DNA from: Actinocorallia herbida
Lineage (GTDB): Bacteria > Actinomycetota > Actinomycetes > Streptosporangiales > Streptosporangiaceae
Direction of reading: 5' to 3'
DNA: 64,000 nucleotides
Assembly: GCF_003751225.1 (NCBI RefSeq)
Contig: NZ_RJKE01000001.1
Location: 2,542,001-2,606,000, forward strand
Shown here: positions 41,109 to 63,146 of the stretch, piece by piece
Layout: every line of letters starts with the position of its first letter
Numbering within the stretch: position 1 is the first letter of the stretch
Position numbers and translations under genes: made by a program
Notes under the pieces: generated by a model
Seen by the model: only the letters and a program-made list of their open reading frames with translations
What the model was told of the DNA's origin: nothing
The model's database searches: none

Positions 41109-41918
41109 TCAGCGGGGGGTCCAGGTGATGCGCCGGCCGGACTGGAAGGTTCTGGCGCCTTCCCTCAGGGAGGCGTCGCTGGTGCCCAGCTGGATCAGGG
41201 ATTGGCCCATTTCCAGGGCGGCTCGGTAGCTGGATTCTTGGGCGGTCCAGATGGATTTTACGGTGGTTTCGGTGGCCAGGGCGGGTTGGGAGGCTATTCG
41301 GGTGGCTACTTCGAGGGCTCGGGGGAGGAGGTCGGCGGGGGCGGTGAGTTCTTGGGCGAGGCCTATTTGGTGGGCTCGGGTGGCGGTCATGCGTTCGTAG
41401 GAGCCCATGAGGGACATGCGCATCACTTCGCCCAGGGGCATGCGCTGGAGCATCATCATGGGTTCGAAGACGGCGGCCATGCCGTAGGTGGTGTGGGGGT
41501 CGAAGAAGGTGGCGGTTTCGGAGGCGATGATGAATTCGACTTCGCCCAGGAGATAGAAGGCGCCGGCACAGGCCATGCCGTTCACGGCGGCGATGACCGG
41601 CTTGTAGAGGTGGCCTGCGGTCTTCGGGGGGAGGAAGTGGCCCGGGTCGTTGTGGTGGAGGGGGACCGCGCCGTTTTCTCCCACTGCTTCGGCTTTGCGG
41701 TCGAGGCCGGTGCAGAAGGCCTTGTCACCGGCGCCCGTCAGGACGATGGCGCGGATGGTCTCGCGGTCGCGGAGGTAGCGCCAGCAGGAGGCGATCTCGC
41801 GCATCATGACGGAGTCGAAGGCGTTGAGGACTTCGGGGCGGTTGAGGGTGACCACCGCCACCTTGTCGATTTCCTCGTACTGGATCGTCTTGTACTGCGG
41901 AAGGTCTGTGGAGGTCAT
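41109..41918 (-). CDS. Crotonase-fold (enoyl-CoA hydratase-like) protein without catalytic Glu pair
   Basis: A 269-residue crotonase-superfamily member: VAVVTLNRPEVLNAFDSVMM, the first oxyanion-hole segment KAFCTGLD, KPVIAAVNGMACAGAFYLLG, and FFDPHTTYGM. The positions equivalent to rat hydratase Glu144 and Glu164 are Tyr122 (AGAFY) and His142 (DPH), exactly 20 residues apart, so ordinary hydratase chemistry is unlikely. It may act as an isomerase, thioesterase, C-C hydrolase or structural partner. It is the last gene of the seven-gene operon starting at 48930 and lies 20 bp behind the phosphotransferase gene. Confidence 0.88.
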   Translation of the reverse strand: MTSTDLPQYKTIQYEEIDKVAVVTLNRPEVLNAFDSVMMREIASCWRYLRDRETIRAIVLTGAGDKAFCTGLDRKAEAVGENGAVPLHHNDPGHFLPPKTAGHLYKPVIAAVNGMACAGAFYLLGEVEFIIASETATFFDPHTTYGMAAVFEPMMMLQRMPLGEVMRMSLMGSYERMTATRAHQIGLAQELTAPADLLPRALEVATRIASQPALATETTVKSIWTAQESSYRAALEMGQSLIQLGTSDASLREGARTFQSGRRITWTPR

Positions 41919-41938
41919 GGGAGGTCCTTCGACGATGT

Positions 41939-43003
41939 TCAGATGAGGGAGAGGGAGTCCAGGGCGCGGATCATGGCGGAGGAGCGGCGGGCCATGGTGA
42001 GGAACATCTCGTCACCGCGGTCGGTCTGGGTGCCGTAGGCGCAGCCCAGGACGGTGATCAGGGGGCCCTGGACGGCGGCGAAGCGGTAGTCCTCGAAGCA
42101 CTCCTCGAAGGAGTAGTCCGTTACTCCGTGGGTGAGGAGTTCGGCGTGGTAGGCGGCGACGACGTCGCGTTCGCAGGCGGCACGGTCGGCGGGGTCGAGG
42201 CCGGTGCCGAGGAGGAAGGCGACGTCGCGGAGGGGGTGGCCGAGGCTGAGGGTCTGCCAGTCGACGGCGGTGACGTCATCGCCGGAAGGGGGGAAGAGGA
42301 GGTTGTCCAGGCGGTAGTCGCCGTGGACGAGGCCGAAGCGCTCGGGGCGGGCGACCGCCCAGGAGACGACGTCGCGGGCCACATCGCGCAGCGTCTCGGC
42401 GTCCTCGGGGGCCAAGCGGCCGGGGAAGCGGTCGATGAAGGTCTCGACGGCGGGGGCGAAGGCGTCGCCGAGGAGTTCGGCCTCCTCCTGGCCGACCTGG
42501 CCGAGCCAGCCGAGGTCGAGGAGGGTGGGGTCGCACCAGCGGGGGCCGTGGAGGCCGGCGAGGTTGCGGGCCGCGGCCTCGGCGTGGCCGGGGAGGCAGC
42601 CGGCGAGCTGGTCGCCCTGGACGGAGGGGGCGGCGTCCTCGAGGAGGAGGGTGAAGGTGGTGCCGTCGGCGGAGATGTCGCTGTAGTGGCAGCGGGGGAT
42701 GCGGACCGCGACGGTGGGGGCGATGTCCTGGTAGAAGCGGACTTCGGTGCGGTAGGCGGAGCTGAGGAAGGCGCGGGAGGCGATGTTCTCGGCGGGGAGT
42801 TTCGCGATGAGGCGCGGGGGCACGCCCTCGCCGGTGAGCTCCAGCCGGTAGCAGGTGCCGATCTGACCCGAGCCGACGCGTTGGGCCGATACCGCGGTCA
42901 CCGGGGCGCCGAGGGCCGCGGTGAGCCAGGCGGGGTCCAGGAGGTCCGGGGTATCGACGGCGGGCACGCTCGGGGAGTTCACTGACGGATCGACGACGCT
43001 CAC
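41939..43003 (-). CDS. Aminoglycoside-phosphotransferase-fold kinase (APH/ecdysteroid-kinase-like)
   Basis: A protein of 354 residues from a GTG at 43003 behind GGAGG. Kinase-like elements: GSGQIGTCYRLEL, LIAKLP (Lys), the Brenner-like catalytic loop LVHGDYRLDNLLFP and the metal motif AVDWQTLSLGHPLRDVAFLL. Members phosphorylate small molecules; in catabolic operons of mycobacteria and relatives, similar genes sit beside acyl-CoA and steroid enzymes. Here it lies between an F420-type monooxygenase and a crotonase-fold gene. Phosphorylation of a hydroxylated substrate or intermediate would fit (inference). Confidence 0.88.
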   Translation of the reverse strand: MSVVDPSVNSPSVPAVDTPDLLDPAWLTAALGAPVTAVSAQRVGSGQIGTCYRLELTGEGVPPRLIAKLPAENIASRAFLSSAYRTEVRFYQDIAPTVAVRIPRCHYSDISADGTTFTLLLEDAAPSVQGDQLAGCLPGHAEAAARNLAGLHGPRWCDPTLLDLGWLGQVGQEEAELLGDAFAPAVETFIDRFPGRLAPEDAETLRDVARDVVSWAVARPERFGLVHGDYRLDNLLFPPSGDDVTAVDWQTLSLGHPLRDVAFLLGTGLDPADRAACERDVVAAYHAELLTHGVTDYSFEECFEDYRFAAVQGPLITVLGCAYGTQTDRGDEMFLTMARRSSAMIRALDSLSLI

Positions 43004-43128: not shown

Positions 43129-44214
43129 TCAGGGGAGGTACCGCGCCGGGTTGAGGTCGGTGCGGACACCGAAGGAGTCCGGACGGATCTTGCGGTACGC
43201 CTCCACGACGGGTTCCAGCTCCCGGGGGGTGGCGCCGTGGAGGATGACGCCGTCGGCGCCGTGCGCGAACTGGTCGGCGACCTTCGCCGCGCACTGTTCC
43301 GCCGAGCCCGTCGCCGAGGCGGCGAGCCATTCGGCGGGGATCAGCGTGTTCAGGTACTCCAGCTGTTCCGTGGTCGCGACCGCGTCGAAGGCACCGGCGA
43401 AGGTGCTGACGAAGTCGTCGGCACGGAACCGGGTCAAGACGGACTTGTCCCACTCGTTCAGGCCGACCAGAAGATCGCCGTACCCCTGGAGATAGGTCGC
43501 CAGCCGCCCGGTGAGCTTCTTCAACCGGAGGTCGTAAGGGATGTGGTCGCCCACGACCGCCAGCACCGACCAGACGCGGACCGAGGAAGGATCGCGTCCC
43601 GCCTGCTCCGCGCCCCGGCGCACCGCCGCGACCGACCGTTCGAGGAGCTCGTCCCCGAAGAACGTGTGCAGGACGACGCCGTCGGCCACCCGGCCCGCGA
43701 ACTCCAGGGTCTTGCCGCCCATGGCCGTCAGCAGGATGGGGATGTCCTCGTCGAACGACGAGTCCTGCATCAGGTACGGGAACTTCCCGGCCGGGCCGTC
43801 GTGCCCGAGGACGGGCTGCCCCTTCCACAGCGTCCGCAGGATCCCGATGACGTCCTCGAGCTGCGCGCTCGTGACGCGGGGGACGCCCATGACGTCGAAG
43901 AGCATGTCGAACCCGCGACCGAGGCCGAGGGCGAAACGGCCTCCGGTGAGGCGGTGCATCGTCGTCGCGAGGGTGGCGGTGAGCAGCGGATGCCGCGTGT
44001 TGTGGTTCGTCGCCGCCGTCGCGATGCCGAGCCGTTCAGAAACCGCCCCGGCCGCTCCCGACAGGGTCGCCGCCTCCTTGGCGTTGAACCTTTCGGAGAG
44101 GAACACCGCGCCGAGGCCGAGGCGTTCGCCGTCGCGCACCTCCATCAGCAGGTCGCGGGGAGTGGCGGAGTGGCCGGCGAGGCCGTAGAAGCCGAGTTCC
44201 CAGAGGTCGTCCAT
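43129..44214 (-). CDS. LLM-class F420-dependent oxidoreductase
   Basis: A 361-residue luciferase-like TIM-barrel protein: ELGFYGLAGHSATPRDLLME, GLGAVFLSERFNAKEAATLS, ATAATNHNTRHPLLTATLAT, FALGLGRGFDMLFDVMG and ILLTAMGGKTLEFAGRVADG. The N-terminal substrate/cofactor region and lack of a flavin partner favour coenzyme F420, close to the TIGR03857-like actinobacterial group. It would reduce or dehydrogenate an intermediate by hydride transfer. It is the fifth gene of the operon, 15 bp behind the P450 and 125 bp before the kinase. Confidence 0.88.
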   Translation of the reverse strand: MDDLWELGFYGLAGHSATPRDLLMEVRDGERLGLGAVFLSERFNAKEAATLSGAAGAVSERLGIATAATNHNTRHPLLTATLATTMHRLTGGRFALGLGRGFDMLFDVMGVPRVTSAQLEDVIGILRTLWKGQPVLGHDGPAGKFPYLMQDSSFDEDIPILLTAMGGKTLEFAGRVADGVVLHTFFGDELLERSVAAVRRGAEQAGRDPSSVRVWSVLAVVGDHIPYDLRLKKLTGRLATYLQGYGDLLVGLNEWDKSVLTRFRADDFVSTFAGAFDAVATTEQLEYLNTLIPAEWLAASATGSAEQCAAKVADQFAHGADGVILHGATPRELEPVVEAYRKIRPDSFGVRTDLNPARYLP

Positions 44215-44229
44215 AGAGAAGGACTCCGT

Positions 44230-45444
44230 TCAGTGCGCGATCTTCGGGGTGGGGGTGAAGCGCACCTTCATGCTCTCGTAGCCGGACACGAAATTGGCAG
44301 GCCGATATGCGGGTTCCGTGTCGTCGACGGGCTCGAGGTCGGGCAGCCGCGTGAGCAGCTGCTCGAACATGACCTTGAGCTCCAGCCGGGCGAGGCTGTT
44401 GCCGAGGCAGAAGTGGGGACCGTTCCCGAAGGCGATGTGGTCGTTCGGGGTGCGCGCGACGTCGAACCGGAACGGGTCCGCGAACACGTCGGCGTCCCGG
44501 TTGGCCGACGGGTACAGCAGGAGGACCTTGTCGCCCTCGGAGATCCGGCTCCCGTTGAACTCGAAGTCCCGGGTGGCCGTCCGGTTCATGTTCTTGATCG
44601 GCGACACCCACCGCAGCATCTCTTCGACGGCCGTGGGGATGCGTGAAGGATCGTCGATGAGGCTCTGCCGCTGGCCGGGGTGCAGGGCGAGCTGGTACAT
44701 GCCGCCGGAGATGACGTGCCGGGTGGTCTCGTCGCCTCCGATGAGGATGAGCAGGGACTCCTGGACGACGGAGTCCTGGTCGAGGCGGTCGCCGTCGATC
44801 TCGGCGTGGACGAGGATGCTGAGCAGGTCGTCCATCGGGCAGCCGCGCCGCTCGGCGGCGGCGCCGGCCGCGTACTCGGTGAACCCGCTGAACGCCTCGC
44901 CCGCCTTGATGAGCATGTCCGGGTCGTCGCCGCCGGTGAGGCCGGACAGCATGTCGTCGGACCAGCGCAGCAGCGTCGCCCGGTCGGACGGCGCGACGCC
45001 CAGCGCGTCACCGATGACGATCAGGGGCAGCAGCGCCGCGATGTCGCTGACGAAGTCGCATTCGCCCCGCTCGCAGACCTCGTCGATGATCTCATCGCAG
45101 ATCCGCCGAAGGTAGGACTCCTGATCCGAGACCCGGCGCGGTGTGAACCCGGAGCTCACGAGCTTGCGCCGCATCTTGTGCTGCGGGTCGTCCATGTCGA
45201 TCATCATCGGCAGCGGGAAGGCGTCGGCGCGGATGCCCTGGGCGTTGGAGAACACCTCCGGCATGCGGGACGCCCGCTTGAGGTCGGCGTGCTTGGACAC
45301 CCCCCACACGCCCGCGTTGGCGTCCCAGTAGACCGGGGCGTTCTCCCGCATCCAGGTCATTTCCTCGTGCGGATTCCGGCCCCAGAACTCGCCACTGATC
45401 AGGTTGATCGACGGGTTGGCGGGCAGGTCGGCTTTGTCGGGCAT
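44230..45444 (-). CDS. Cytochrome P450
   Basis: A 404-residue bacterial class I P450. The heme-binding loop is FGNGPHFCLGN with Cys346, the ExxR pair is at Glu275/Arg278 (EEMLRW) and the I-helix oxygen-binding motif is GGDETT (236-241; Gly-Asp where AGxxT is usual, as in several CYP families of actinobacteria). It hydroxylates a hydrophobic substrate using ferredoxin electrons; no ferredoxin gene is adjacent. It lies 33 bp behind a second P450, which suggests sequential oxidations in one pathway. Confidence 0.95.
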   Translation of the reverse strand: MPDKADLPANPSINLISGEFWGRNPHEEMTWMRENAPVYWDANAGVWGVSKHADLKRASRMPEVFSNAQGIRADAFPLPMMIDMDDPQHKMRRKLVSSGFTPRRVSDQESYLRRICDEIIDEVCERGECDFVSDIAALLPLIVIGDALGVAPSDRATLLRWSDDMLSGLTGGDDPDMLIKAGEAFSGFTEYAAGAAAERRGCPMDDLLSILVHAEIDGDRLDQDSVVQESLLILIGGDETTRHVISGGMYQLALHPGQRQSLIDDPSRIPTAVEEMLRWVSPIKNMNRTATRDFEFNGSRISEGDKVLLLYPSANRDADVFADPFRFDVARTPNDHIAFGNGPHFCLGNSLARLELKVMFEQLLTRLPDLEPVDDTEPAYRPANFVSGYESMKVRFTPTPKIAH

Positions 45445-45477
45445 GGAAACCTTCCTCGGGGGGTGGAGGCGGGGAGG

Positions 45478-46653
45478 TCAGGAGAGGACGCGCACGGGCA
45501 GCTTGGCGAGGCCGCGCACGTTGCTGGAGTAGGCCCACTCCATCCCGGACTCGTCGTAGTCGAAGTCGGGGAAGCGCTTGAGCAGCTCCTCGAACGCGAC
45601 GCGGGTCTCCAGCCGGGCCAGGGACGCGCCCAGGCACAGGTGCCGGCCGAACCCGAAGCTGACGTGCCGGTCGATGTCCCGGGAGATGTCGAAGACGTCC
45701 GGGTCGGCGTACTTGCGCTCGTCCCTGATGGCCGATCCCGTCACAAGGATGACCCGCTGGTCGGCCGGGATGACGGTCCCGTGCAGCTCGACGTCCTGGG
45801 TCGTCCAGCGCCCCTGGTAGTGCGACGGCGGGTCCCAGCGCAGCATCTCCTCGACAGCGTTGCCGAGCAGCGAGGGGTCGGCGACGATCGCGCGGCGCGC
45901 CTCGGGGAAGCGGCTGAGCGCGATGACGCCGTTGGGGATGAGCTTGGCGACGGTCTCGTGCCCGGCGAAGGCGAGCTCCAGGAACCGTGAGGCGAGCTCG
46001 CCGTTGCCCAACGACCGGGTCGAGCCGTCCTCTTCTTCGACCGGGGTGTTCATGAGGAGGGTGATGACGTCGTCGCCCGGGTGCGCGCGGCGCTCCTTCA
46101 CCAGATCGGCGAGCAGCCCGAGCAGTTCGGCGCTGGCGACGAAGGCGTCCTCGGGGGTCTTGTTGTCCTCGGTGCGGACCGCGACCCGGTCGCTGAGGTG
46201 GTGGATCTTCTCGCGGCTCTCGGCGGGGATGCCGATCAGCTCGCTGATGACGTCGAGGGGCAGCCGGAACGAGAAGTTCTCGACGAGCTCGAATTCGGAG
46301 AGGCCGTCCAGCTTGTCCAGGAGGTCGGCGGCGGTCCGGCGGATGAACGGCTCGAGCGCCGCGATCCTCCGGGGCGTGAACAGCCGCGCGACGATCTTGC
46401 GGTGCATGGTGTGCTCGGGCGGGTCCTTGACGATCAGGAACGGCGCCCCCTGGTCGACGCCCTCGATCGTGACCCCGTGCGCGCTGGAGAAGTGCTCGAC
46501 GTCCAGGTGGGCCGCGACGACGTCCTCGTACCGGGTGAGGGCCCAGAAGCCGAGCTCCTCGTTGTGGTAGACCGGCGCCTCGTCCCGCAGCCGCTTGTAG
46601 ACCGGGAACGGGTTCCGGACCGTCGCCCGGTGGAACGGGTTGTACTCGATCAC
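45478..46653 (-). CDS. Cytochrome P450
   Basis: A protein of 391 residues from a GTG at 46653 that overlaps the stop of the upstream SDR (GTGA). The heme loop is FGFGRHLCLGA (Cys340), the ExxR pair is Glu269/Arg272 and the I-helix reads AGHET (230-234), where His replaces the residue before the Glu-Thr pair. DPPEHTMHRKIVARLFTPRR is the conserved C-helix region. Its sequence differs clearly from the downstream P450, so it is not a recent duplicate. The two P450s and the aldehyde dehydrogenase suggest terminal or allylic oxidation to acid level. Confidence 0.95.
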   Translation of the reverse strand: MIEYNPFHRATVRNPFPVYKRLRDEAPVYHNEELGFWALTRYEDVVAAHLDVEHFSSAHGVTIEGVDQGAPFLIVKDPPEHTMHRKIVARLFTPRRIAALEPFIRRTAADLLDKLDGLSEFELVENFSFRLPLDVISELIGIPAESREKIHHLSDRVAVRTEDNKTPEDAFVASAELLGLLADLVKERRAHPGDDVITLLMNTPVEEEDGSTRSLGNGELASRFLELAFAGHETVAKLIPNGVIALSRFPEARRAIVADPSLLGNAVEEMLRWDPPSHYQGRWTTQDVELHGTVIPADQRVILVTGSAIRDERKYADPDVFDISRDIDRHVSFGFGRHLCLGASLARLETRVAFEELLKRFPDFDYDESGMEWAYSSNVRGLAKLPVRVLS

Positions 46654-47438
46654 GGGGTCTCTCCAGTGAAGGGGGCCAGCGAGTCGGCGAAGGTGCCCAC
46701 GACGGGCGAGGGGGAGCGGACCGTCAGGTGCTCGAGGCAGACGCCGGGCTTGCCGAGGGCGGTCGCGGCGGTGCCGAGCAGGACGTCGGCGACGTCCTGC
46801 GGGTCCATCATCTGCTCCTGGGCGAGGCCGCGCACGCCCCAGTCGTCCAGCGCGCGCATGAGGATGTCGCCCTCGAAGGCGTTGCCGAAGTCCGTGGGGA
46901 AGGTCGCGCCGATCGTGACCGTGGTGAACCGCTTCCACGGGTGCTCGGTCCGCCAGCCGACCAGCAGCCTTTCGAGCGCGGCCTTGGACGTCGCGTACGC
47001 GCCGAGCCCTGTGCGGGGTTGCACGACGGTCTCGGACGAGAGCGCCATCACCATCCCGGAGGCGTCCAGCAGAGGCAGGCACGCCCGGAGCAGCCGGTGG
47101 GTGCCGACGACGTTGGCGGCGAAGACGCGTTCCCAGTCTTCGTCGTCGGTGTCGACGAGCATCTTCAGCGGGGCCACGCCGACGCAGGAGACGACGAGGT
47201 CGAGCCCGCCCAGCTCCGCCTGAACGGCGGCGGCGATCCGGGTCGCGCCGTCGCGATCGGTGAGGTCGACCGCGACGGTGTGGCCGCCGCCCGCCTCGTC
47301 GCGGGCCTTGTCGAGTTCGGCCTGCCGCCGCGCGGCGAACACGACCCGCGCGCCCGCCCGCACCGCGCCGACCGCGAAGGCCCGCCCGATGCCCGCGGAC
47401 GCTCCGCTCACCAGGACGCGTGCGCCGTCCAAGCCCAT
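46650..47438 (-). CDS. Short-chain dehydrogenase/reductase
   Basis: A 262-residue SDR. The cofactor motif is SGASAGIG (11-18), with FAARRQ (Arg, NADP-type), VDLTDRDG, VVSCVGVAP in place of NNAG, LSSETVVQ and YATSKAALERLL (Tyr-x3-Lys). The C-terminal half is longer than in fabG types (FPTDFGNAFEGDILMRALDD). The ATG at 47438 follows GAAGGGAAG. It is the second gene of the operon between ALDH and P450, a likely alcohol or hydroxyacyl oxidation step. Confidence 0.9.
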   Translation of the reverse strand: MGLDGARVLVSGASAGIGRAFAVGAVRAGARVVFAARRQAELDKARDEAGGGHTVAVDLTDRDGATRIAAAVQAELGGLDLVVSCVGVAPLKMLVDTDDEDWERVFAANVVGTHRLLRACLPLLDASGMVMALSSETVVQPRTGLGAYATSKAALERLLVGWRTEHPWKRFTTVTIGATFPTDFGNAFEGDILMRALDDWGVRGLAQEQMMDPQDVADVLLGTAATALGKPGVCLEHLTVRSPSPVVGTFADSLAPFTGETP

Positions 47439-47460
47439 GGTCTTCCCTTCGTCGGGGAGG

Positions 47461-48930
47461 TCAGCGGCCATATGCGATGGCCTTGATCTCCAGGTACTCC
47501 TCGAATCCGGCGATACCGCTCTCCCGGCCGACGCCGCTCTGCCGGTAGCCGCCGAACGGCACGTCCGCGCCGTAGTAGAGGCCGCCGTTGACCGAGATCG
47601 TGCCGGTCCTGACCCGCTGCGCGACGGCCTGCGCCCGCTCCTCCGACGCGCTGACGACCATCCCGGACAGGCCGTAAGGCGAGTCGTTGGCTATCCGAAC
47701 CGCGTCGTCGTCGCCGTCGTGCGCGAGGACCGCGAGGACGGGGCCGAAGATCTCCTCCTGCGCGACCGTCGCGTCCGGGGTGACGCCGGTGAGCACGGTC
47801 GGCTGCACGAAGTAGCCGCGCGGCAGGTGCTCGGGGATCCCGCCGCCGAGCGCGACGCTCGCGCCTTCGCTGACGCCCTTCTCGACGTAGCCGAGGACGC
47901 GCTGCCGCTGCCGCTCGCTGATGAGCGGGCCCATGAGGACGCCCGGGTCGGACGGGTCGCCGTACGGCCAGTCCTTGAGCATCTGGACGAGCAGTTCGAC
48001 GCCCTCGTCGTAGCGGGCGCGCGGCAGGACGAGCCGGGTGAGGATCGCGCAGCCCTGCCCGGCGTGGGTGGTGATCTGGAAGGCGGCGTTACCGACGGCG
48101 GCCTTCATGTCGGCGTCGTCGAGGGCGAGCAGAGCGGACTTGCCGCCGAGCTCGAGGAACACCTTCTTGATGTTCTCCGCGCCCGCGCGCATGACGCTGC
48201 GGCCGGTGTCGGTCGACCCGGTGAACGAGACGAGGTCGACGCGCGGGTCGGCCGCGAGCTGGGCGCCGAGCTCGTGCGAGGAGCCGACGACGACGTTGAA
48301 CACGCCGTCCGGGATGTCGGTCTCCTCCGCGACGATCCGGCCGAGGATCGTGGCGTTCCAGGGCGTGTCGGGCGCGGGCTTGAGGATCACGGTGTTGCCC
48401 GCGGCGAGGGCGGGTCCGACCTTGGCCAGGATGATCTGCATCGGGAAGTTCCACGGCGTGATCGCGCCGACCACCCCGACGGCTTCCCGGCGCAGGACGC
48501 GCTGGGTGCGGATCCCCATCGGGGACGCGATGCCCAGGTCGGTCTCCCACGCGTAGGACTCCGCGACGTCCGCGATCCAGCCGAGGCCCTCGACGGGGCT
48601 GTCGAGCTGGGGGCCGTGGGTGAGCATGACGGGGGTGCCGACCTCGGCGACGATCACGCCGCGCAGCTCGTCGGCATGGCGTTCCAGACCCTCGCGGAGC
48701 TGGCGCAGGCAGCGGACGCGGAACGCCAGGTCCGTCGGCCAGGTGGTCTCGTCGAAGGCGCGGCGGGCCGCGGCGATCGCGCGGTCCATGTCGGCGGTCC
48801 CGGCGTCGGCGGTGGTGCCGATGACCTCCTCCGTCGCGGGGTTGACGTTCTCGAAGGTGCGGCCGTCGGCTGCGGCTGTCACAGACCCGTCTATGAGAAG
48901 CAGTTCCTCGCGGGGGGCGTCCGATGTCAT
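47461..48930 (-). CDS. NAD(P)-dependent aldehyde dehydrogenase
   Basis: A 489-residue class I/II-type ALDH. Visible active-site residues are Asn161 (TPWNFPM), Glu260 (LELGGKS) and the nucleophile Cys294 in HAGQGCAIL, with Lys184 in ILKPAPDTP and the second conserved Glu in EEIFGPVLAVL. It oxidises aldehydes to acids. It is the first gene of the seven-gene minus-strand operon, 22 bp before the SDR. The promoter region 48931-49124 is shared with the divergent SDR and includes an AT-rich element. Confidence 0.95.
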   Translation of the reverse strand: MTSDAPREELLLIDGSVTAAADGRTFENVNPATEEVIGTTADAGTADMDRAIAAARRAFDETTWPTDLAFRVRCLRQLREGLERHADELRGVIVAEVGTPVMLTHGPQLDSPVEGLGWIADVAESYAWETDLGIASPMGIRTQRVLRREAVGVVGAITPWNFPMQIILAKVGPALAAGNTVILKPAPDTPWNATILGRIVAEETDIPDGVFNVVVGSSHELGAQLAADPRVDLVSFTGSTDTGRSVMRAGAENIKKVFLELGGKSALLALDDADMKAAVGNAAFQITTHAGQGCAILTRLVLPRARYDEGVELLVQMLKDWPYGDPSDPGVLMGPLISERQRQRVLGYVEKGVSEGASVALGGGIPEHLPRGYFVQPTVLTGVTPDATVAQEEIFGPVLAVLAHDGDDDAVRIANDSPYGLSGMVVSASEERAQAVAQRVRTGTISVNGGLYYGADVPFGGYRQSGVGRESGIAGFEEYLEIKAIAYGR

Positions 48931-48996
48931 GGTGTCTCCACAGCGTTCGGTGTGGTCGGGGGACGCCGCGAGCCCGGTGCGGAGGGGCCGCGGATC

Positions 48997-49035
48997 TGAT
49001 TTTTTAAACTTGATGATGTATATTATTAGCAATTC
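48997..49035. promoter_or_regulatory. AT-rich promoter/operator island
   Basis: GATTTTTTAAACTTGATGAT then GTATATTATTAGCAATTC: 39 bp of mostly A/T between the divergent ALDH and SDR genes. CTTGATGATGTATATTATT resembles the minus strand of 24653-24679, and ACTTGATG recurs at 26510-26517. Confidence 0.5.
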
Positions 49036-49124
49036 GTGGGTCTGCCAATGCCCACCGAGCGGCGGCCGCCCCGCGATCGACCCCCACCCCACGCTCCAGT
49101 GGTCCCCCGGAGGAGGGCGCGCAC

Positions 49125-50691: not shown

Positions 50692-50693
50692 CC

Positions 50694-55090: not shown

Positions 55091-56245
55091 TCAGCGCGCC
55101 GCGGTGAGGGCCTGCTTGGCGATGACGACCTGCTGGACCTGGCTGGTGCCCTCGTAGATGCGGAAGAGCCGGGCGTCCCGGTAGAAGCGCTCGACGGGGA
55201 CGCCGCGCATGTACCCCGCGCCGCCGTGGACCTGGACGGCCCGGTCGGCGACGCGGCCCACCGCCTCGCTGGCGAAGTACTTCGCGCAGGAAGGGCCCAT
55301 GCGGGTGTCGGTGCCGGCGTCGAAGGCGCGGGACGCCTCCAGCAGCAGGGAGCGGGAGGCGTAGACGTCGGTCTGGGAGTCGGCGATGAGGCCCTGGATG
55401 AGCTGGAACCCGGCGATGGGCTTGCCGGACTGCTTCCTGGACAGGGCGTACGTGACGGTCTCGTCCAGGAGGCGCTGGGCCATGCCGGTGCAGAGGGCGG
55501 CGATGTGCAGGCGGCCGTGGGCCAGGCAGCGCATGGCCGTGAGGTAACCCTGGCCCTTGCCCGAGGGGCCGCCGATGAGGGCTTCGGCGGGGACGGGCAC
55601 GTCGTCCAGGAAGACCTCGGCGGTCCAGGCGCCGTGCTGGCCCATCTTCTTGTCGCGCGGCCCGACGGTCAGGCCGGGGGCGTCGCGCGGGACGAGGAAG
55701 ACCGAGATGTCCCGGGACGCCTTCTCCTGCTCGCCGTGCCGGGCGAAGACCATGAAGACGTCCGCGACGGGCGCGTTGGTGATGTAGCGCTTCGCGCCGT
55801 TCAGGATCCAGCCGCCGTTCCCGTCGGGCCGGGCCGCGGTCTTCAGGCCCGACGGGTCGGAGCCCGCGTCGTCCTCGGTGAGGGCGAACGAGGCGGTCCA
55901 CTCGCCCGAGGCGAGCTTCGGAAGGTGGGCCTTCTTCTGCGCGTCGGTGCCGCCCTCCATGAGGACGTGCCCGGCGATCCCGTTGTTCGTTCCGAACAGC
56001 GAGCGGAAGGCGGGCGTCGTATAGCCCAGCTCCATGACGAGCAGGGCCTCCTGCGCCATGGTCAGGCCCAGGCCGCCGTGCTCCTCGGGCAGGGCGAACC
56101 CGTACAGGCCCATCTCGGCCGCCGCCGCGCGCAGTTCCGGCGGCATCTCGTCGGTCTCGTCGATCTCGGTCTCGCGCGGCACGACCCGCTCGCGCACGAG
56201 CGCCCGTACCGCCGCCACGATCTCCGCGACGTCCGCGTCCTGCAT
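55091..56245 (-). CDS. Acyl-CoA dehydrogenase (canonical)
   Basis: A 384-residue homotetramer-type enzyme: YGFALPEEHGGLGLTMAQEA, FALTEDDAGSDPSGLKTAAR, GAKRYITNAPVADVFMVFA, RKQSGKPIAGFQLIQGLIAD, HGGAGYMRGVPVERFYRDAR and IYEGTSQVQQVVIAKQAL with the catalytic Glu. It is the third gene of the operon ECH (58292), ACAD (57549) and this gene, 35 bp behind its neighbour, and is followed by a terminator. It would feed an enoyl-CoA to the module. Confidence 0.94.
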   Translation of the reverse strand: MQDADVAEIVAAVRALVRERVVPRETEIDETDEMPPELRAAAAEMGLYGFALPEEHGGLGLTMAQEALLVMELGYTTPAFRSLFGTNNGIAGHVLMEGGTDAQKKAHLPKLASGEWTASFALTEDDAGSDPSGLKTAARPDGNGGWILNGAKRYITNAPVADVFMVFARHGEQEKASRDISVFLVPRDAPGLTVGPRDKKMGQHGAWTAEVFLDDVPVPAEALIGGPSGKGQGYLTAMRCLAHGRLHIAALCTGMAQRLLDETVTYALSRKQSGKPIAGFQLIQGLIADSQTDVYASRSLLLEASRAFDAGTDTRMGPSCAKYFASEAVGRVADRAVQVHGGAGYMRGVPVERFYRDARLFRIYEGTSQVQQVVIAKQALTAAR

Positions 56246-56280: not shown

Positions 56281-57549
56281 TCAGCCGCGCGGGACCTCAC
56301 GCCAGGGCAGGCCCTCGTACGGGTCGGGTTCCTTCGGCAGCCCGAGCACCCGTTCGGCGAGGATGTTCTTGTTGACCTCGCTGGTGCCGCCCTCGATGGT
56401 GTTGGCGCGGCTGCGCAGCAGGCCGCGGATCTCGGCCGGGATGCCGTCGGCGTAGTCGTCGCCGCCCTCCCAGGCCGCTCCGGCGAGGCCGAGCATCCGG
56501 GCCGCGGCCTCCTGGACGCGCTGGTTCAGCTCCGAGCCGTGCACCTTGCCGATCGAGCTCTCCGGGCCGGGCGGCAGGCCCGCCTTGAGCCCGGCGCGCA
56601 CCCGGACATTGGTCCACGCCCGGATCTGCTCCTCGCCCCACAGCTTGACGAGCCGGTGTCGCGTCTCGTGGTCGTCCCAGCCGTAGGGGAGTCCCTGCTC
56701 GGACCGCTCGATGGCGAGGCCGATCAGACGACGGGTGCCGGAGCCGCCGATGCGGTCGACGCCGCCGGACCCGGATCCGGAGACCATCTGGCGCTCCCCG
56801 CTCAGCGTCGCCCGGGCGACCTTCCAGCCTTCGTTGACGGGTCCGATGCGCTGGTCGTCGGGTACGTGGGCGCCGTCGAGGTAGACCTCGTTGAAGTCGA
56901 CTTCGCCGCCGATGTGCTTGAGCGGGCGGACGTCGACGCCGGGTTGGTCGAGTTTGATGAGGAAGTAGGTGATGCCCTGGCGTTTGGGGGCGTCGGGGTC
57001 GGTGCGGGCGAGCAGGACGCCGTAGTCGGCGAGGTGGGCCCAGGTCGTCCAGACCTTCTGGCCGGTGATGCGCCAGCCGTCGCCGTCGCGCTCGGCCCGG
57101 GTGGCCAGGGAGGCGAGGTCGCTGCCCGCGCCGGGCTCGCTGAACAGCTGGCACCACACCTCGGCGTTGGCGACGATCGGTGGCAGGTATCGCAGCCGCT
57201 GCTCGTGCGTGCCGTGCGCGAAGAGCGCGGCGGCCGTGAGGTTGAGGCCGAGGGGGTTGAGGCGGGGCAGGTGGTAGGGCGCGAGGAGGCGTTCCGCGGT
57301 CTGCGCGAGGCGGCGGTCCCAGCCGAGCCCGCCGTACTCGACCGGCCACTGCGGGACGACCAGGCCGGTCGCGGCGAAGGCCGGATACCAGGCGCGGTAC
57401 TCGTCGGGTGTCCTGACTTTGCGCACCTCCTGGGGGCCGCCGCGCTCGCCGGCCTCGCGCCAGGTCGCGGGGACCTCCGCGGCGATCCAGGCGCGGACGG
57501 CGGTCCGCACGTCCTCCTCGTCGGCGCAGTCGCGCAGCGCGTCACTCAT
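56281..57549 (-). CDS. Acyl-CoA dehydrogenase, alpha-type (large) subunit
   Basis: A 422-residue protein, long for the family. VWCQLFSEPGAGSDLASLAT, RITGQKVWTTWAHLADYG and the C-terminal NTIEGGTSEVNKNILAERVL are present; Gly replaces the catalytic Glu of YEGT enzymes, as in large subunits of heteromeric FadE pairs. The short-type partner is probably the gene at 59643 on the divergent operon. It starts with ATGA overlap to the upstream crotonase-fold gene. It likely acts on a bulky (steroid- or terpenoid-like) acyl-CoA, by analogy with mycobacterial FadE complexes. Confidence 0.92.
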   Translation of the reverse strand: MSDALRDCADEEDVRTAVRAWIAAEVPATWREAGERGGPQEVRKVRTPDEYRAWYPAFAATGLVVPQWPVEYGGLGWDRRLAQTAERLLAPYHLPRLNPLGLNLTAAALFAHGTHEQRLRYLPPIVANAEVWCQLFSEPGAGSDLASLATRAERDGDGWRITGQKVWTTWAHLADYGVLLARTDPDAPKRQGITYFLIKLDQPGVDVRPLKHIGGEVDFNEVYLDGAHVPDDQRIGPVNEGWKVARATLSGERQMVSGSGSGGVDRIGGSGTRRLIGLAIERSEQGLPYGWDDHETRHRLVKLWGEEQIRAWTNVRVRAGLKAGLPPGPESSIGKVHGSELNQRVQEAAARMLGLAGAAWEGGDDYADGIPAEIRGLLRSRANTIEGGTSEVNKNILAERVLGLPKEPDPYEGLPWREVPRG

Positions 57550-58292
57550 CGCGGGATTCCTCTCGCCTCGCTCAGTCCGGTCTCTTTGGCGCGCCACAGG
57601 GCGCGTTTCACCGCGGCGAGCACCTCGGGCGGGTGCTCGGCGACGCGTTCGGCGAGCGCCTGCGCGGTGGGCCGCAGGTCGTCGGGCTCGACGACCTCGC
57701 TGACCCAGCCGAGCCGCAGCGCCTCGGCCGCGCCGATCCGCTCGTGCGCGCCGGTCAGCGCCATCCGGGCGACCGGCGCGAAGCTCGCGCGCCGGGCCAG
57801 CCCGATCGTCTCGAACGCGCTGACCTGGCCGACGCTGACGTGCGGGTCGAGGAAGGTCGCGGACGCCGAGGCGATGACGATGTCGGAGTCGGCCACGAAG
57901 TGGAGGCCGCCGCCGGCGCACACCCCGTTGACCGCCGTCACGACGGGTTTGGCGACGCCGCAGTGCCAGCCGGTGAGCCGCAGGTCGGCCCGTCTGGTGC
58001 GGCGTGACATGTCGCGGAGCGCGCCGGGGTCCTTGGCGAGCTGCGCGACGTCGAGGCCGGTCTGGAAGGCCCTGCCGTTGCCCGTCACGCAGATGACGCG
58101 GACGTCGGGGTCGGCGTCGAGTTCGGCCCAGACCTCGGGGAGGCGGGCCATCATCGCGGCGTCCATGGCGTTGCCCCGGTCGGGCCGGTCGAAGACGAGC
58201 CAGCCGACCGGGCCGTCACGGGCCACCCGGAGCCCGGCGTCCGGAGTGCCGGGCCCACCCGTGGGGAACGGCAGCGCTGGAGTATTCTTCAT
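57546..58292 (-). CDS. Crotonase-fold protein with His in place of both catalytic Glu
   Basis: A 248-residue protein from the ATG at 58292. Crotonase elements: VGWLVFDRPDRGNAMDAAMM, GRAFQTGLDVAQLA (first oxyanion-hole strand), KPVVTAVNGVCAGGGLHFVA and DPHVSVGQVSAF. The two positions matching Glu144/Glu164 of rat enoyl-CoA hydratase are His131 and His151, 20 residues apart. It closely resembles the protein at 62352-63146 in these segments. It is the first gene of the minus operon, divergent from a MaoC-type gene. Hydration is unlikely; another acyl-CoA reaction (isomerisation, C-C cleavage, thioester hydrolysis) is possible. Confidence 0.9.
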   Translation of the reverse strand: MKNTPALPFPTGGPGTPDAGLRVARDGPVGWLVFDRPDRGNAMDAAMMARLPEVWAELDADPDVRVICVTGNGRAFQTGLDVAQLAKDPGALRDMSRRTRRADLRLTGWHCGVAKPVVTAVNGVCAGGGLHFVADSDIVIASASATFLDPHVSVGQVSAFETIGLARRASFAPVARMALTGAHERIGAAEALRLGWVSEVVEPDDLRPTAQALAERVAEHPPEVLAAVKRALWRAKETGLSEARGIPR

Positions 58293-58311: not shown

Positions 58312-58377
58312 CCGGTGCTAGCGTCGTAAGTGTTCACTGAGGCCGCCCCCGTGCGGCCGGTGCGAAGGGGACGGTCG

Positions 58378-59640
58378 GTGGCTTCTGGCAAGCTGGATTC
58401 TGGCAAGATCACTGATGCGGGCGTCGCCTTGTTGCGGTCCCGGATCGGCGTCCCGCAGCTGTACCCCGCGCCGCCGCACTACCGGCGGCCCGGCGAGGAC
58501 GCGTTCCGGCACGTCGCCCGCTCCTACGGCGACGACAATCCGCTCTACGGCGATCCCGCCTACGCCGAGGCGACCCGGTGGAAGGCCGCGATAGCGCCTC
58601 CGGCCCTGGTCGGGGGCGACAGCCTCATCGGTGAGGACGCGCTGACCGAGGCGGAGATCGCCCGGCAGGACGAGCTCAAGGGCGATCCGCTGCGCGGCGT
58701 GCACGCCTTCTACGCGGCCAGCGAGCGCGAGTGGTGGGCACCCCTGACGGCCGGTCAGCGGGTCCGCCGGCGGACCGCGCTCGTCGGGGTGAAGGACCGG
58801 CCGAGCGAGTTCGGCGGGCGCGGCGTCCAGGAATGGACGGCCCAGGCGTTCCAGACGGAATCGGGCACCTTGCTCGGCGCGCAGTACCGGATGATGTACC
58901 GGACCGAGCGCGAGAAGGCCAGAGAACGTAAAAAGTATGCAGAAGTGGCGGTAGAGCCCTGGACCGAGGAGGGCATCGCCGAGCTCGACGCCCAGTACGC
59001 GGCGGAGGAGCCGCGCGGCGCCGAGCCCCGCTACTGGGAGGACGTCGAGGTCGGCGACAAGGTCGGCCCGCTGGTCAAGGGCCCGCTGACGGTCACGGAC
59101 ATGGTCTGCTGGCATGTCGGGATGGGCATGGGCATGTACGACGTGGCCCCGCTGCGCCTGGCCTACCGGAACCGGAAGCGGATCCCGCGCTTCTACCACC
59201 GCGATGAGCTGGGCGTCCCCGACGCGATGCAGCGGGTGCACTGGGACCCCGCCTACGCCCGCAAGTCCGGAAATCCCACGACGTTCGACTACGGGCGGAT
59301 GCGCGAGACCTGGATCATCCACGCCTGCACCGACTGGATGGGCGACGACGCCTGGCTGTGGCGGATGCGGGTGGAGTTCCGCAAGTTCAACTACGTGGGC
59401 GACGTCCAGTGGGTCGAGGGCGAGGTCGTCGGCAAACACCTCGCCGAAGGCGGCCGCCCCGCCGTCGACCTCGAACTCCGCACCCGGAACCAGCGGGGCG
59501 AGATCACCTCCCCGGCGTCGGCGACGATCCTGCTGCCGAGCCGCGAGCACGGGCCCGTCCGCCTGCCGGAGCCGCCCGGCGCGGCCACCGACCTCGAGTC
59601 GGCGTTCGCCGCCGTCATCGACCGATTCGAGCGGGAGTGA
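58378..59640 (+). CDS. FAS1-like/MaoC double-hotdog dehydratase
   Basis: A protein of 420 residues from a GTG at 58378 with GAAGGGG upstream; a GTG at 58330 is the alternative. The N-terminal half contains the MaoC_dehydrat_N-like element EDAFRHVARSYGDDNPLYGD, in which Tyr replaces the His usual in DxNPxH. The second half has RYWEDVEVGDKVGPLVKGPL, TVTDMVCWHVGMG, RMRVEFRKFNYVGDVQWVEG and ELRTRNQRGE, a hotdog strand order. It is a probable enoyl-CoA hydratase of the beta-oxidation module, where the crotonase-fold partners lack hydratase residues. It is the first gene of the plus operon, 2 bp before the dehydrogenase gene. Confidence 0.85.
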   Translation: MASGKLDSGKITDAGVALLRSRIGVPQLYPAPPHYRRPGEDAFRHVARSYGDDNPLYGDPAYAEATRWKAAIAPPALVGGDSLIGEDALTEAEIARQDELKGDPLRGVHAFYAASEREWWAPLTAGQRVRRRTALVGVKDRPSEFGGRGVQEWTAQAFQTESGTLLGAQYRMMYRTEREKARERKKYAEVAVEPWTEEGIAELDAQYAAEEPRGAEPRYWEDVEVGDKVGPLVKGPLTVTDMVCWHVGMGMGMYDVAPLRLAYRNRKRIPRFYHRDELGVPDAMQRVHWDPAYARKSGNPTTFDYGRMRETWIIHACTDWMGDDAWLWRMRVEFRKFNYVGDVQWVEGEVVGKHLAEGGRPAVDLELRTRNQRGEITSPASATILLPSREHGPVRLPEPPGAATDLESAFAAVIDRFERE

Positions 59641-59642
59641 CG

Positions 59643-60782
59643 ATGAGCGAGAACGATCTGCGGCTGCTGCGCGAGTCCCTGCGGGACGCGTTCGCCGACC
59701 TGGCGCCGTCCGAGGCGGTGCGCGCCCACATGGACTCAGCACGCGGCTGGAGCCCCGAGGAGTGGCGGCGGCTCTGCCGTGAGCTGGGCCTCGCCGGGTT
59801 CCTCGTGCCCGAGGAGTCCGGCGGCGGCGGCTTCTCGGCCGTCGAGGCCGGCATCGTGTTCGAGGAGGCGGGACGCGCACTGTTGTGCGCGCCGCTCTTC
59901 GCCGTCGCGGGGCTGACCGTTCCTTTGCTGCTCGCCTTGGACGACGCGGAAGCGGCCAAGAGGTATCTGCCCGGACTGTGCGCAGGGACCTTCGTCGCCA
60001 CGGTCGCGACGGCCGACGCGGTAGGCCGCCCGCTGCCTGACGGGGACGTGCCCGAGGCCGTCATCAGCGCGGACGGGCCCGTGCTCACCGGGACCGTGGG
60101 GTTCGTCGTGGACGGGGCGTCGGCCGACGTCGTGCTCGTCCCCGCGCGGACCGGCGACGGGATCGGGATCTTCGCCGTCGAGACCCGGGCCCCAAGCGTC
60201 ACCGTGATCCCGCTGACCAGCCTCGACCTCACCAGGAAGCAGGCCGGGCTGGAGTTCGCCGAGGCCCCCGCCGTCCGGGTGGGGGAGGGCGACGCGGCCG
60301 AGGCGTTCGCGCTCGCGCTCGACGTCGCGCGGGCGCTGCTGGCCGCCGAGCAGGCGGGCGGCGCGGCCCGCTGCCTGGAGGAGACGGTCGCCTACGGCAA
60401 GACGCGTGTCCAGTTCGGCAGGCCGATCGGCTCGTTCCAGGCGTTCAAGCAGAAGTGCGCCGACCTGCTGATCAAGACCGAGTCGGCGAAGTCGGCGGCG
60501 GAGGCGGCCGCGCAGGCCGCGGCCCTGGCCCTGGACGGCGACGCGTTCGTCCGGCTGCCCGGCCTCCCGAACCTGCCCATCGTCTCGGCCGTCGCCGCCT
60601 CCTACTGCGCGGAGGCCTACGTGGCCGTCACCGCCGAGATGATCCAGCTGCACGGCGGCATCGGCTTCACCTGGGAGCACGACGCGCACCTGTACTACAA
60701 GCGCGCCTGGACCGGCCGCGAGCTGCTGGGCCGCCCCGAGGAGCACACCGAGCGCCTCGCCCGCCTCCTGGCCGCCCCGTGA
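59643..60782 (+). CDS. Acyl-CoA dehydrogenase, beta-type (small) subunit
   Basis: A 379-residue ACAD-fold protein: LGLAGFLVPEESGGGGFSAV, GIVFEEAGRALLCAPLFA, a beta-domain (AVISADGPVLTGTVGFVVDG), KTRVQFGRPIGSFQAFKQKC and LHGGIGFTWEHDAHLYYKRA. The C-terminal YEGT-type catalytic stretch is absent; the GGIGFTWEHD form is that of the second subunit in heteromeric FadE enzymes. Its probable partner is the protein encoded at 56281-57549 across the divergent promoter. The ATG at 59643 is 2 bp after the MaoC-type stop. Confidence 0.92.
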   Translation: MSENDLRLLRESLRDAFADLAPSEAVRAHMDSARGWSPEEWRRLCRELGLAGFLVPEESGGGGFSAVEAGIVFEEAGRALLCAPLFAVAGLTVPLLLALDDAEAAKRYLPGLCAGTFVATVATADAVGRPLPDGDVPEAVISADGPVLTGTVGFVVDGASADVVLVPARTGDGIGIFAVETRAPSVTVIPLTSLDLTRKQAGLEFAEAPAVRVGEGDAAEAFALALDVARALLAAEQAGGAARCLEETVAYGKTRVQFGRPIGSFQAFKQKCADLLIKTESAKSAAEAAAQAAALALDGDAFVRLPGLPNLPIVSAVAASYCAEAYVAVTAEMIQLHGGIGFTWEHDAHLYYKRAWTGRELLGRPEEHTERLARLLAAP

Positions 60783-60822: not shown

Positions 60823-62325
60823 GTGACCATGACCTCGGGCGGTCTCACCGACTTCCTCATCGGCCATCCCGCCGCGCGCGACACCCCCGTCCTCTACGGC
60901 GTGGACGTCGAGCGCACCCTTGGCGAGCTGACGGCGTCGGCCCGCATCCTCGCCGGACGCCTCGGACCCGTCACCGGCCAGCCCGTCGTCTGCGTCGTCG
61001 ACGACGGGGTCCGCGCCGTCACCGCGATGTTCGCGACCTGGCTCGCGGGGGGCGTCTACGTGCCCGTCAACGGGCGGCTGACCGCGCGGGAGGTCGCCGC
61101 GCACGTCGCCGCGTCACGCCCCGCCGTGGTCGTCGCCGGACCGGACACGCGGGTCCCCGAGGGGTACGACGTGCTGCGCGAGGACGAGCCCGACGTGTGG
61201 ACGTGCGCGTGCGCCCCGGACCGGGACGAACCCGCTTCGTACGGACCGGAAGCCGCGATCGTCATCCGGACCTCGGGCACGACGGGCGAGTCCAAGCCCG
61301 TCGTCCTCGGCCACGACGGCGTCCGCGACGGCATCGACACCGTCCTGGGCAAGCTGCGCGGCGGCCGGAGCGCGGGCCGGGCGCCGATGCCCAACCTCAT
61401 CCCCAGCTCGCAGGCGCTGTGGGCGGGCGCCTGGAACCTGTTGTTCGCGTTCCGCGCGGGCGCCCCCGCGATCCTGATGGACCGCTTCGATCCCGTCGCC
61501 TACGCGGGGCTGGTCCGCCGCTTCCAGATCCGCTCGACGATCCTGGCCCCGGCGATGATGGCGATGCTCCTCGAACACGAGGACGTCGCCGACCTCGCCC
61601 CGCTCAAGCTCGTCAGGTCCGTCACCGCGCCGCTCGCGCCCGACCAGGCCCGCAGGTTCCGGGACAGATACGGCGTGGACGTCCTCAACTCCTACGGCCA
61701 GACCGAGCTCGGCAGCGAGGTCGCCGGGTGGACCGCCGCGGACGTCCGGGAGTTCGGCGCGGCCAAGCTCGGCGCGGTCGGCCGGGCGCACCCCGGGATC
61801 GACATCCGCATCGCCGGCGACGACGGCGCCGCCCTGGCGCCGGACGCCTCGGGCGAGATCTGGATCCGGTCGCCGTTCGCGACCGGGGACGCAGCGGGCC
61901 GCGTCGACGCCGAAGGCTATCTCCGCACGGGCGACCTCGGCAGGCTCGACGCCGACGGGTTCCTGTGGATCGAGGGCCGGGTGTCCGACATGGTCAACCG
62001 CGGCGGCCTCAAGATCGTCCCGCAGGAGGTCGAGGAGGTCCTGCGCGGCCACCCCGACGTCGCCGACGCGTGCGTCGCGGGCGTCCCGGACGAGCGCCTC
62101 GGCGAGGTGCCCGTCGCGTGGGTGCGGCCCAAGGCCGGCCGGACCCTTGACGAGGCCGATCTCGCCGCCTGCTCACGGCGGGAACTCGCCGGGTACAAGG
62201 TGCCCGTCGCGTTCCGCGTCGTGGCCGACTTCCCCCGCACCGAGATCGGCAAGGTGCTCCGCCGCGACCTCGTCGCGGACTTCGTCCGGACGGCCGCCGA
62301 GCCGTCGGACGCGCAGGTCCCCTGA
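60823..62325 (+). CDS. Acyl-CoA synthetase (AMP-forming ligase)
   Basis: A protein of 500 residues of the ANL superfamily from a GTG at 60823. The P-loop is IVIRTSGTTGESKPVVL, A5 is NSYGQTELGSE, A7 is LRTGDLGRLDADGFLWIEGR, A8 MVNRGGLKIVPQEVEEVL, and the catalytic Lys lies in EIGKVLRRDLV (A10). It activates a carboxylic acid through an acyl-adenylate to its CoA thioester, the entry step of the module. It lies 40 bp behind the dehydrogenase and 26 bp before the next crotonase-fold gene. The acid is not identifiable. Confidence 0.93.
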   Translation: MTMTSGGLTDFLIGHPAARDTPVLYGVDVERTLGELTASARILAGRLGPVTGQPVVCVVDDGVRAVTAMFATWLAGGVYVPVNGRLTAREVAAHVAASRPAVVVAGPDTRVPEGYDVLREDEPDVWTCACAPDRDEPASYGPEAAIVIRTSGTTGESKPVVLGHDGVRDGIDTVLGKLRGGRSAGRAPMPNLIPSSQALWAGAWNLLFAFRAGAPAILMDRFDPVAYAGLVRRFQIRSTILAPAMMAMLLEHEDVADLAPLKLVRSVTAPLAPDQARRFRDRYGVDVLNSYGQTELGSEVAGWTAADVREFGAAKLGAVGRAHPGIDIRIAGDDGAALAPDASGEIWIRSPFATGDAAGRVDAEGYLRTGDLGRLDADGFLWIEGRVSDMVNRGGLKIVPQEVEEVLRGHPDVADACVAGVPDERLGEVPVAWVRPKAGRTLDEADLAACSRRELAGYKVPVAFRVVADFPRTEIGKVLRRDLVADFVRTAAEPSDAQVP

Positions 62326-62351
62326 CCCACGGCAACGAGAACGGAACGCCC

Positions 62352-63146
62352 TTGAGTTACCAGACCCTTCAGGTGGAGCGGCGCGGCCGCGTCGGGTGGC
62401 TGATCTTCAACCGGCCCGACGTGCGCAACGCCATGAACAACGCGATGCGGGACGAACTACGCGAGGCCTGGACGGAGCTCGCCGCCGACCCGGAGGTGCG
62501 CGTCATCGTCAACGCGGCCAACGGCAAGGCCTTCCAGACCGGTGCCGACGTCCGCGAACTGGCCACCGACGGCCAGGGCATGGAACGCTACCGGGCCTCG
62601 GTCGAGGCCTGGGACCTCGGCTTCACGAGCTGGCACCTCGGCATCGACAAGCCCGTCATCGCCGCGGTGAACGGCATCTGCGCGGGCGGCGGCCTGCACT
62701 TCGTGGCCGACGCCGACATCGTCCTCGCCGCCTCCGACGCCCAGTTCACCGACCCGCACGTCTCGGTCGGCCAGACCAGCGCCATCGAGACGATCGCCCT
62801 CATGCGCAAGATGCCCGCCGAAGCCGTCCTGCGGATGGCCCTCGTCGGCCGCTACGAGCGGATGAGCGCGCAGCGCGCCCTGGACCTCGGCATGATCAGC
62901 GAGATCGTCGACCCGCCGGACCGCCTCCACGAGGCGGCCCAGGACCTCGCCGAGAAGATCGCCCGCAACTCCCCGGCCGCGCTGGCCGCCACCAAACGCG
63001 CCCTCTGGGGCGCCCTCGAATCCGGCCTCACCGACGCCTGCCGGGCGGGCGCCGCCGAACTGACCGGCCTCTGGGGCCACCCCGACCAGACCGAAGGCCC
63101 CGCCGCCTTCGCCGCAAAGCGCGAACCCGACTGGAAGACCCTCTGA
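62352..63146 (+). CDS. Crotonase-fold protein with His in place of both catalytic Glu
   Basis: A protein of 264 residues from a TTG at 62352. VGWLIFNRPDVRNAMNNAMR, GKAFQTGADVRELATDG, KPVIAAVNGICAGGGLHFVA and DPHVSVGQTSAIETIALM define the fold. His116 and His136 occupy the two catalytic Glu positions. It is clearly paralogous to the protein at 57546-58292 (long shared stretches such as CAGGGLHFVAD and DPHVSVGQ). The oxyanion hole is intact, so acyl-CoA binding is expected. It is the last gene of the plus operon, followed by a terminator. Confidence 0.9.
   Translation: MSYQTLQVERRGRVGWLIFNRPDVRNAMNNAMRDELREAWTELAADPEVRVIVNAANGKAFQTGADVRELATDGQGMERYRASVEAWDLGFTSWHLGIDKPVIAAVNGICAGGGLHFVADADIVLAASDAQFTDPHVSVGQTSAIETIALMRKMPAEAVLRMALVGRYERMSAQRALDLGMISEIVDPPDRLHEAAQDLAEKIARNSPAALAATKRALWGALESGLTDACRAGAAELTGLWGHPDQTEGPAAFAAKREPDWKTL

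Follow-up and report, generated by a model that had tools for sequence, protein, structure and literature searches.

What does a crotonase do once it has kept its fold and lost both catalytic glutamates of the enoyl-coenzyme A (CoA) hydratases? The question arises in a stretch of the Actinocorallia herbida genome (contig NZ_RJKE01000001.1, positions 2,542,001 to 2,606,000; the window, by which we mean this whole stretch of 64,000 nucleotides), where three genes, here C1 to C3, encode such proteins. We find that they belong to a real and coherent crotonase subfamily, which we call DxH. Its members are probably not hydratases but enzymes that cleave carbon-carbon bonds in cyclic lipids. The three genes are as follows, with H/H, Y/H and similar labels giving the residues at the first and second glutamate positions.

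62352..63146, plus strand: C3, H/H crotonase of type A, full length; 264 amino acids, TTG start; key residues H116, D134, H136, E146 and R170
57546..58292, minus strand: C2, H/H crotonase of type B, C-terminally truncated; 248 amino acids from the ATG at 58292; H131/H151
41109..41918, minus strand: C1, Y/H crotonase of the same clade; Y122/H142, Glu at +10

Three crotonases without the hydratase glutamates

The first-pass annotation had reported the three residue pairs in place of the catalytic glutamates, and we confirm the pairs, the coordinates and the reading frames. HMMER aligns C3 H136 to the second glutamate of the E/E protein 3R0O, and in an alignment of the A. herbida crotonases all three pairs fall in the glutamate columns of the E/E proteins (the rat hydratase glutamate numbering is also given in an excerpt of PMC5651017). 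All three proteins clear the 27-bit cut-off of the crotonase-fold model PF00378, scoring 147.1 (C3), 118.5 (C2) and 126.2 bits (C1), and none of the NCBIfam crotonase models reaches its curated cut-off among the best 25 of 72, 69 and 66 matches per protein. The best of the models listed is EchA19 for C3 and C1 (184.6 and 145.2 against a cut-off of 400) and PRK06190 for C2 (137.8 against 253). The oxyanion-hole positions are kept, as had been claimed, across 113 rows of types A and B: G113 is present in every row, and position 63 is Thr in 51 of 51 type A rows and Thr, Ser or Ala in 56, five and one of the 62 type B rows. We take T63 and G113 to be the oxyanion residues by alignment.

Two other features of the original observation carry less weight. 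The A. herbida genome (9.8 Mb, one contig) has 64 PF00378 matches, 62 of which are rows in our alignment; 16 of these are E/E, 34 lack Glu at both positions, and 32 have neither Glu nor Asp at either. Loss of both glutamates is thus true of all three proteins and at the same time not unusual, and we rejected its rarity as the key finding. The spacing of exactly 20 residues between the two positions is also correct, but it is general to the family, being seen in 56 of the 61 A. herbida rows in which it can be measured, and we set it aside as evidence.

A subfamily with a fixed residue set

The suggestion that the signature marks a subfamily held up well. In a 175-row tree that includes the A. 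herbida crotonases, one group (SH-aLRT 98) unites the DPH proteins and 3TLF, whose structure is solved, and a more careful 61-row tree, the kind of test that had been proposed, places C1, C2 and C3 in a single DxH clade with support of 100/98. The first residue sorts this clade into D/H (6 rows, 100/99), Y/H (19 rows, 100/99) and H/H (25 rows, 85/86) branches, with one origin each for H, Y and D; some branches in this tree are long, and placements inside H/H are less certain. D134, H136, E146 and R170 (C3 numbering) are invariant in all 38 DxH rows among 44 crotonase rows (three of the 38 repeat the window genes), and the other six, which are E/E, N/F or Q/F, lie outside the clade. The DPH motif is no chance resemblance, being the mark of a clade in which other residues are fixed along with it. 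Among 194 crotonase rows from the public loci, 117 are H/H, a count that omits fragments gapped at one of the two positions (three) or at both (four), and E146 is Glu in all 117. We sampled 149 genomes of the phylum, A. herbida included, and 15 of them have the clade at E ≤ 1e-70.

The same association appears within the A. herbida genome. Where His stands at the second position, Asp lies two residues earlier in 12 of 12 rows, versus 4 of 49 others, and an acid lies at +9 or +10 in 11 of 12, versus 10 of 49 (Fisher p 8e-6 for the latter; the rows are related, and p is only a guide). A site devoid of acid, as first pictured, is therefore not what these proteins have, since D-x-H and a Glu accompany the His; acids offered from other positions, which the annotation had named as a finding that would count against it, are in part present, as far as an alignment of sequences can place them. 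In DxH proteins, then, the residues replacing the hydratase glutamate pair are X116 (H, Y or D) and D-x-H, with an invariant Glu at +10 and a near-fixed Arg. We found no DxH or H/H crotonase subfamily in the open-licence literature that we searched, a result that does not show its absence from print.

The departure from a canonical hydratase is supported by what happens to hydratases deprived of these residues. AcuH became inactive when either Glu was changed to Ala (PMC5651017, in excerpt), and in DmdD E121A abolished activity and E141A left a trace of one activity (PMC3660561, in excerpt); canonical hydratase chemistry is unlikely for the DxH subfamily.

Two paralogues in one locus

The H/H proteins split into type A, which resembles C3 (100/98), and type B, which resembles C2 (100/96, both in the 61-row tree), and C2 and C3 are ancient paralogues of types B and A. 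The genes had been assigned to two independent operons, and this needs some revision: the paralogues C2 and C3 share a locus, each in one of its two divergent operons, and it is C1 that stands separately, ~16 kb away. A metagenome-assembled genome of Myxococcota has just one H/H crotonase (L104:10022-10792), which branches at the base of the A/B split.

The pairing recurs. We found H/H rows in 66 public loci, of which 62 are represented in a larger tree (the single basal copy in L104 and dropped fragments in L112-L114 are outside the 62, and five of 117 H/H rows were left out for length). Window aside, exactly one A and one B are present in 49 of these 62 loci. In six of the 13 others, several of them at contig ends, TBLASTN recovers a partner or a piece of one (L073, L092, L103, L109, L118 and L121).

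Type A is full length in all 50 public tree rows. By comparison, 33 of the 61 public type B rows, and C2 with them, are truncated, ending 88-109 residues past the DPH His versus about 128. In C2 the stop codon TGA and the start codon ATG of the following gene overlap (ATGA), so that the short end looks natural. A or a piece of A accompanies 32 of the 33 truncated B proteins in the same locus; the exception is in L107, where no A is found and only 2.8 kb is available on one side. In the other six loci with B and no A, B is full length (in one, L096, the stretch ends directly after B). In AcuH, the active center lies between the N-domain of one subunit and the C-domain of its neighbor (PMC5651017, in excerpt), and this arrangement, together with the co-occurrence of A and B and the truncation of B, suggests an A/B hetero-oligomer in which A completes B. 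We infer that A and B form one hetero-oligomer, with A supplying the C-terminal part that B has lost.

That these proteins bind acyl-CoA and do nothing more with it is the sense of one alternative, in which they are non-catalytic carriers or scaffolds, as claimed for mycobacterial EchA6 (Cox 2016, cited in PMC5651017), or in which type B is a dead regulatory subunit of A. The loss of both glutamates and the truncation of B would suit it, but H116, D134, H136 and E146 are invariant in 51 of 51 A and 62 of 62 B rows, which is not expected of a dead subunit, and we regard this alternative as very improbable. For the same reason, the first-pass conclusion that the proteins should bind but not hydrate says too little: retention of H116, H136 and E146 in both paralogues suggests catalysis.

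A second hetero-pair in the clade is suggested by adjacent D/H and Y/H genes. These are adjacent in four sampled genomes of one family (L150-L153, in genomes G096, G038, G050 and G074) and at L140:8099-9696, and they are neighbors in A. herbida also. In L166, L168, L170 and L171, a further crotonase with Asn or Gln and Phe at the glutamate positions lies beside the D/H and Y/H pair.

Likeness to known crotonases

The best-scoring solved sequence for C3, for C1 and for a protein of Novosphingobium sp. ES2-1 (below) is 3TLF, presumably of mycobacterial origin, which falls within the D/H branch of the DxH clade. It shares D-x-H and the Glu at +10, and differs in having Asp at the first position instead of His or Tyr. 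It is labeled an enoyl-CoA hydratase/isomerase, and a literature search on the entry code gave two unrelated matches and no paper on function.

The 6-oxocamphor hydrolase OCH (1O8U), which acts by hydrolytic cleavage of a carbon-carbon bond, has His145 at the position of rat E164, and a profile alignment places it on C3 H136. The acids are set out slightly differently, with Asp142 three residues before His145 and Asp154 at +9 in OCH, versus Asp two before and Glu at +10 in the DxH clade; OCH also retains Glu at the first position (E124), whereas the DxH clade does not. An equivalent of the OCH His/acid dyad is nonetheless likely in DxH enzymes, to judge by these alignments. The A. herbida genome has an OCH-like crotonase of its own (L057).

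ABDH (2J5G/2J5S) likewise resembles DxH: a His occupies the place of rat E164, preceded by an Asp and followed shortly by an acid, here too at +9 and not at +10. An excerpt of PMC3584854 names it a beta-diketone hydrolase, and a title cited there calls it CoA-independent, unlike the acyl-CoA enzymes that we envisage. The same excerpt matches 3q1t, which has V/H for E/E, to ABDH residues D153, H144, E243, D141 and H43 and predicts that it is also a beta-diketone hydrolase. Proteins of this EchA15/3q1t type thus lack both glutamates and have D-x-H with an acid at +9; their A. herbida relative (L030) lies outside the DxH clade, on a long branch of the 175-row tree.

Plasmid p3 of Novosphingobium sp. 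ES2-1 is among the best plasmid matches. Its protein (L143:9989-10795) reads IHF...DTH...GLE, making it H/H with the Glu at +10, and is 40.7% identical to C3; it lies in the H/H clade on a long branch, and the crotonase gene adjoining it is not H/H. From the cytochrome P450 gene on, the gene order tracks that of OpA, an edc operon in N. tardaugens, except that ES2-1 has two separate genes where a fused one is reported and that the record and the paper label two of the genes differently. The OpA gene at that place is given as a 2-ketocyclohexanecarboxyl-CoA hydrolase, thought able to open ring B (PMC7793797, in excerpt), and both BadI and the opening of ring B by hydrolysis are mentioned in a review (PMC12507874, in excerpt). 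The correspondence between the BadI-like edc protein EGO55_13545 and the ES2-1 protein is one of gene order and annotation. For EchA20, a crotonase reported to cluster with MenB, work on purified enzymes demonstrated that a steroid ring is opened by hydrolysis (PMC5380842, in excerpt).

Gene neighborhood

The genes around the pair, and one further away in the window, are as follows.

58330..59640, plus strand: MaoC/FAS1-dehydratase-like protein; PF13452 in the N-half, D298 and H304 in 42 of 42 rows
56281..57543, minus strand: acyl-CoA dehydrogenase, large-subunit type (ACADL); best solved relative Tcur3483
59640..60782, plus strand: acyl-CoA dehydrogenase, small/IpdE2-like (ACADS); below curated cut-offs
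60823..62325, plus strand: AMP-forming acyl-CoA ligase
55091..56245, minus strand: third acyl-CoA dehydrogenase (ACAD1)
63324..63908, plus strand: TetR-type regulator, after C3
45478..46674, minus strand: cytochrome P450 (P450b); best solved match CYP125MRCA; beside a short-chain dehydrogenase/reductase (SDR) and an aldehyde dehydrogenase

C2 is the first gene of the minus-strand operon, with two acyl-CoA dehydrogenase genes behind it; the plus-strand operon, which diverges from this one, encodes the MaoC-like protein, a dehydrogenase, the ligase and C3, with the TetR gene afterwards. We counted relatives of named genes in the 46 public loci that span 14 kb or more (clustering of all open reading frames was mixed with antisense frames). 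The commonest are ACADL (41 of 46), the MaoC-like protein (34) and the ligase (32); the small dehydrogenase is present in 18, at score limits that we set, and P450b in 12. SDR relatives (three queries) are found in 21 loci, HAD-type 3-hydroxyacyl-CoA dehydrogenases being outside this count, and thiolase or lipid-transfer relatives (four queries) in 10, whether at 80 bits or at E 1e-15.

The annotation had proposed that the MaoC-type protein supplies hydration, and this is possible for one part of it. We infer from its length that the protein consists of two hot-dog halves. Across 42 rows, made up of the window protein and the 41 relatives that score above 400 bits, the C-half has D298..H304-W-D with D298 and H304 unvarying, while the N-half has GDDN[PS]L[WY] and either W or Y at the position of the hydratase His throughout. 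A Y/H crotonase gene also adjoins that of a MaoC-like protein, which by eye resembles the one in the window, at L142:6356-8504.

This candidate hydratase bears on the idea that the DxH proteins are themselves hydratases, dehydratases or isomerases, using His/His or Tyr/His on unusual bulky enoyl-CoAs. They do keep the crotonase fold and oxyanion hole, and crotonases vary widely at the glutamate positions, as the A. herbida genome illustrates; but a separate enzyme that may perform the hydration is encoded near the pair in most of the loci, and D-x-H with an acid at +9 or +10 is a hydrolase-like set, and we consider a His-based hydratase or isomerase unlikely.

The neighborhood speaks more directly to a second alternative, in which the MaoC-like protein hydrates the enoyl-CoA and the H/H pair is a retro-aldol lyase, splitting the beta-hydroxyacyl-CoA without prior oxidation into acetyl- or propionyl-CoA and an aldehyde or ketone, and so doing the work of a dehydrogenase and a thiolase together. 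Aldolases cleave tertiary hydroxyacyl-CoAs derived from steroids. Few thiolase genes lie near the pair, and this scarcity, set against the frequency of ACADL, MaoC and ligase genes, speaks for such a lyase, as does the nearest solved relative of ACADL, Tcur3483 (4x28 is the fourth; we take both to be steroid enzymes); the MaoC-like protein matches ChsH2/ChsH1 very weakly (E about 0.25). The His/acid set resembles that of hydrolytic carbon-carbon bond cleavers, however, SDR relatives are found in nearly half of the loci, and the ES2-1 locus has both SDR and thiolase-type genes. A retro-aldol lyase is also an unlikely reading, and we rank hydrolytic cleavage as the more likely of the two, favored as it is by the His/acid residue set.

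Further from the pair, positions 43129-52659 of the window encode two P450s, SDRs, an aldehyde dehydrogenase, a Rieske oxygenase, and luciferase-like and glyoxalase-like proteins; relatives of P450b, SDR1 and the aldehyde dehydrogenase also lie near the H/H cluster in L063, L064 and L065. The motif HEFIDI.G.NR...MTANW marks a protein encoded repeatedly in the vicinity of H/H loci (L067:3320-4057 and L124:14028-14771), with a weak NIPSNAP match in one of the two copies scanned.

A proposed function

The reading that we prefer, tentatively and at a little short of an even chance, is that DxH is a two-subunit His/acid acyl-CoA enzyme that hydrolytically cleaves a beta-keto substrate, perhaps a cyclic one. 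The ligase, the acyl-CoA dehydrogenases and the MaoC-like protein would prepare the substrate. His136, held by D134 and/or E146, would activate water or deprotonate a hydroxyl, X116 would act as the second acid/base, and the kept oxyanion hole would hold the enolate; the (cyclic) beta-keto acyl-CoA would thereby be cleaved hydrolytically, as in OCH, ABDH and the EchA20-type ring openings. A steroid- or terpenoid-like pathway substrate is likely.

Several observations weigh against hydrolytic cleavage by an A/B enzyme. A beta-keto route needs an oxidation, and often a thiolase later, and neither SDR nor thiolase partners are constant, which fits retro-aldol cleavage too. OCH Asp154 aligns by profile with C3 I145, one column ahead of E146, and R170 is Lys in one of the 62 type B rows. 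Type A is not universal, since TBLASTN found B and no A in seven loci (L096-L101 and L107). The proteins are not BadI by the model TIGR03210, against whose cut-off of 467.6 bits C3, C2 and C1 score 75.7, 52.4 and 67.2, and the ES2-1 protein, at 84.3, is rejected likewise; "BadI-like" in the estrogen papers is itself an annotation and not an assay.

A broader proposal is that A and B share composite sites, with truncated B borrowing the C-terminal domain of A, and that a His-Asp/Glu catalytic set allows one step, hydrolytic or retro-aldol, to replace thiolase; the pathway would be widespread among actinobacteria and act on compounds resembling steroids or terpenoids. This proposal seems to us doubtful.

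Implications

The DxH clade is a crotonase branch that had no name, and both its active site and the hypothesis of A/B subunits lend themselves to testing. Through the ES2-1 protein, it offers a link to a ring-opening step of estrogen degradation that is poorly proven. The annotated members that we saw (3TLF and the plasmid records) carry general enoyl-CoA hydratase labels only, and correcting these labels would alter pathway predictions in many actinobacteria.

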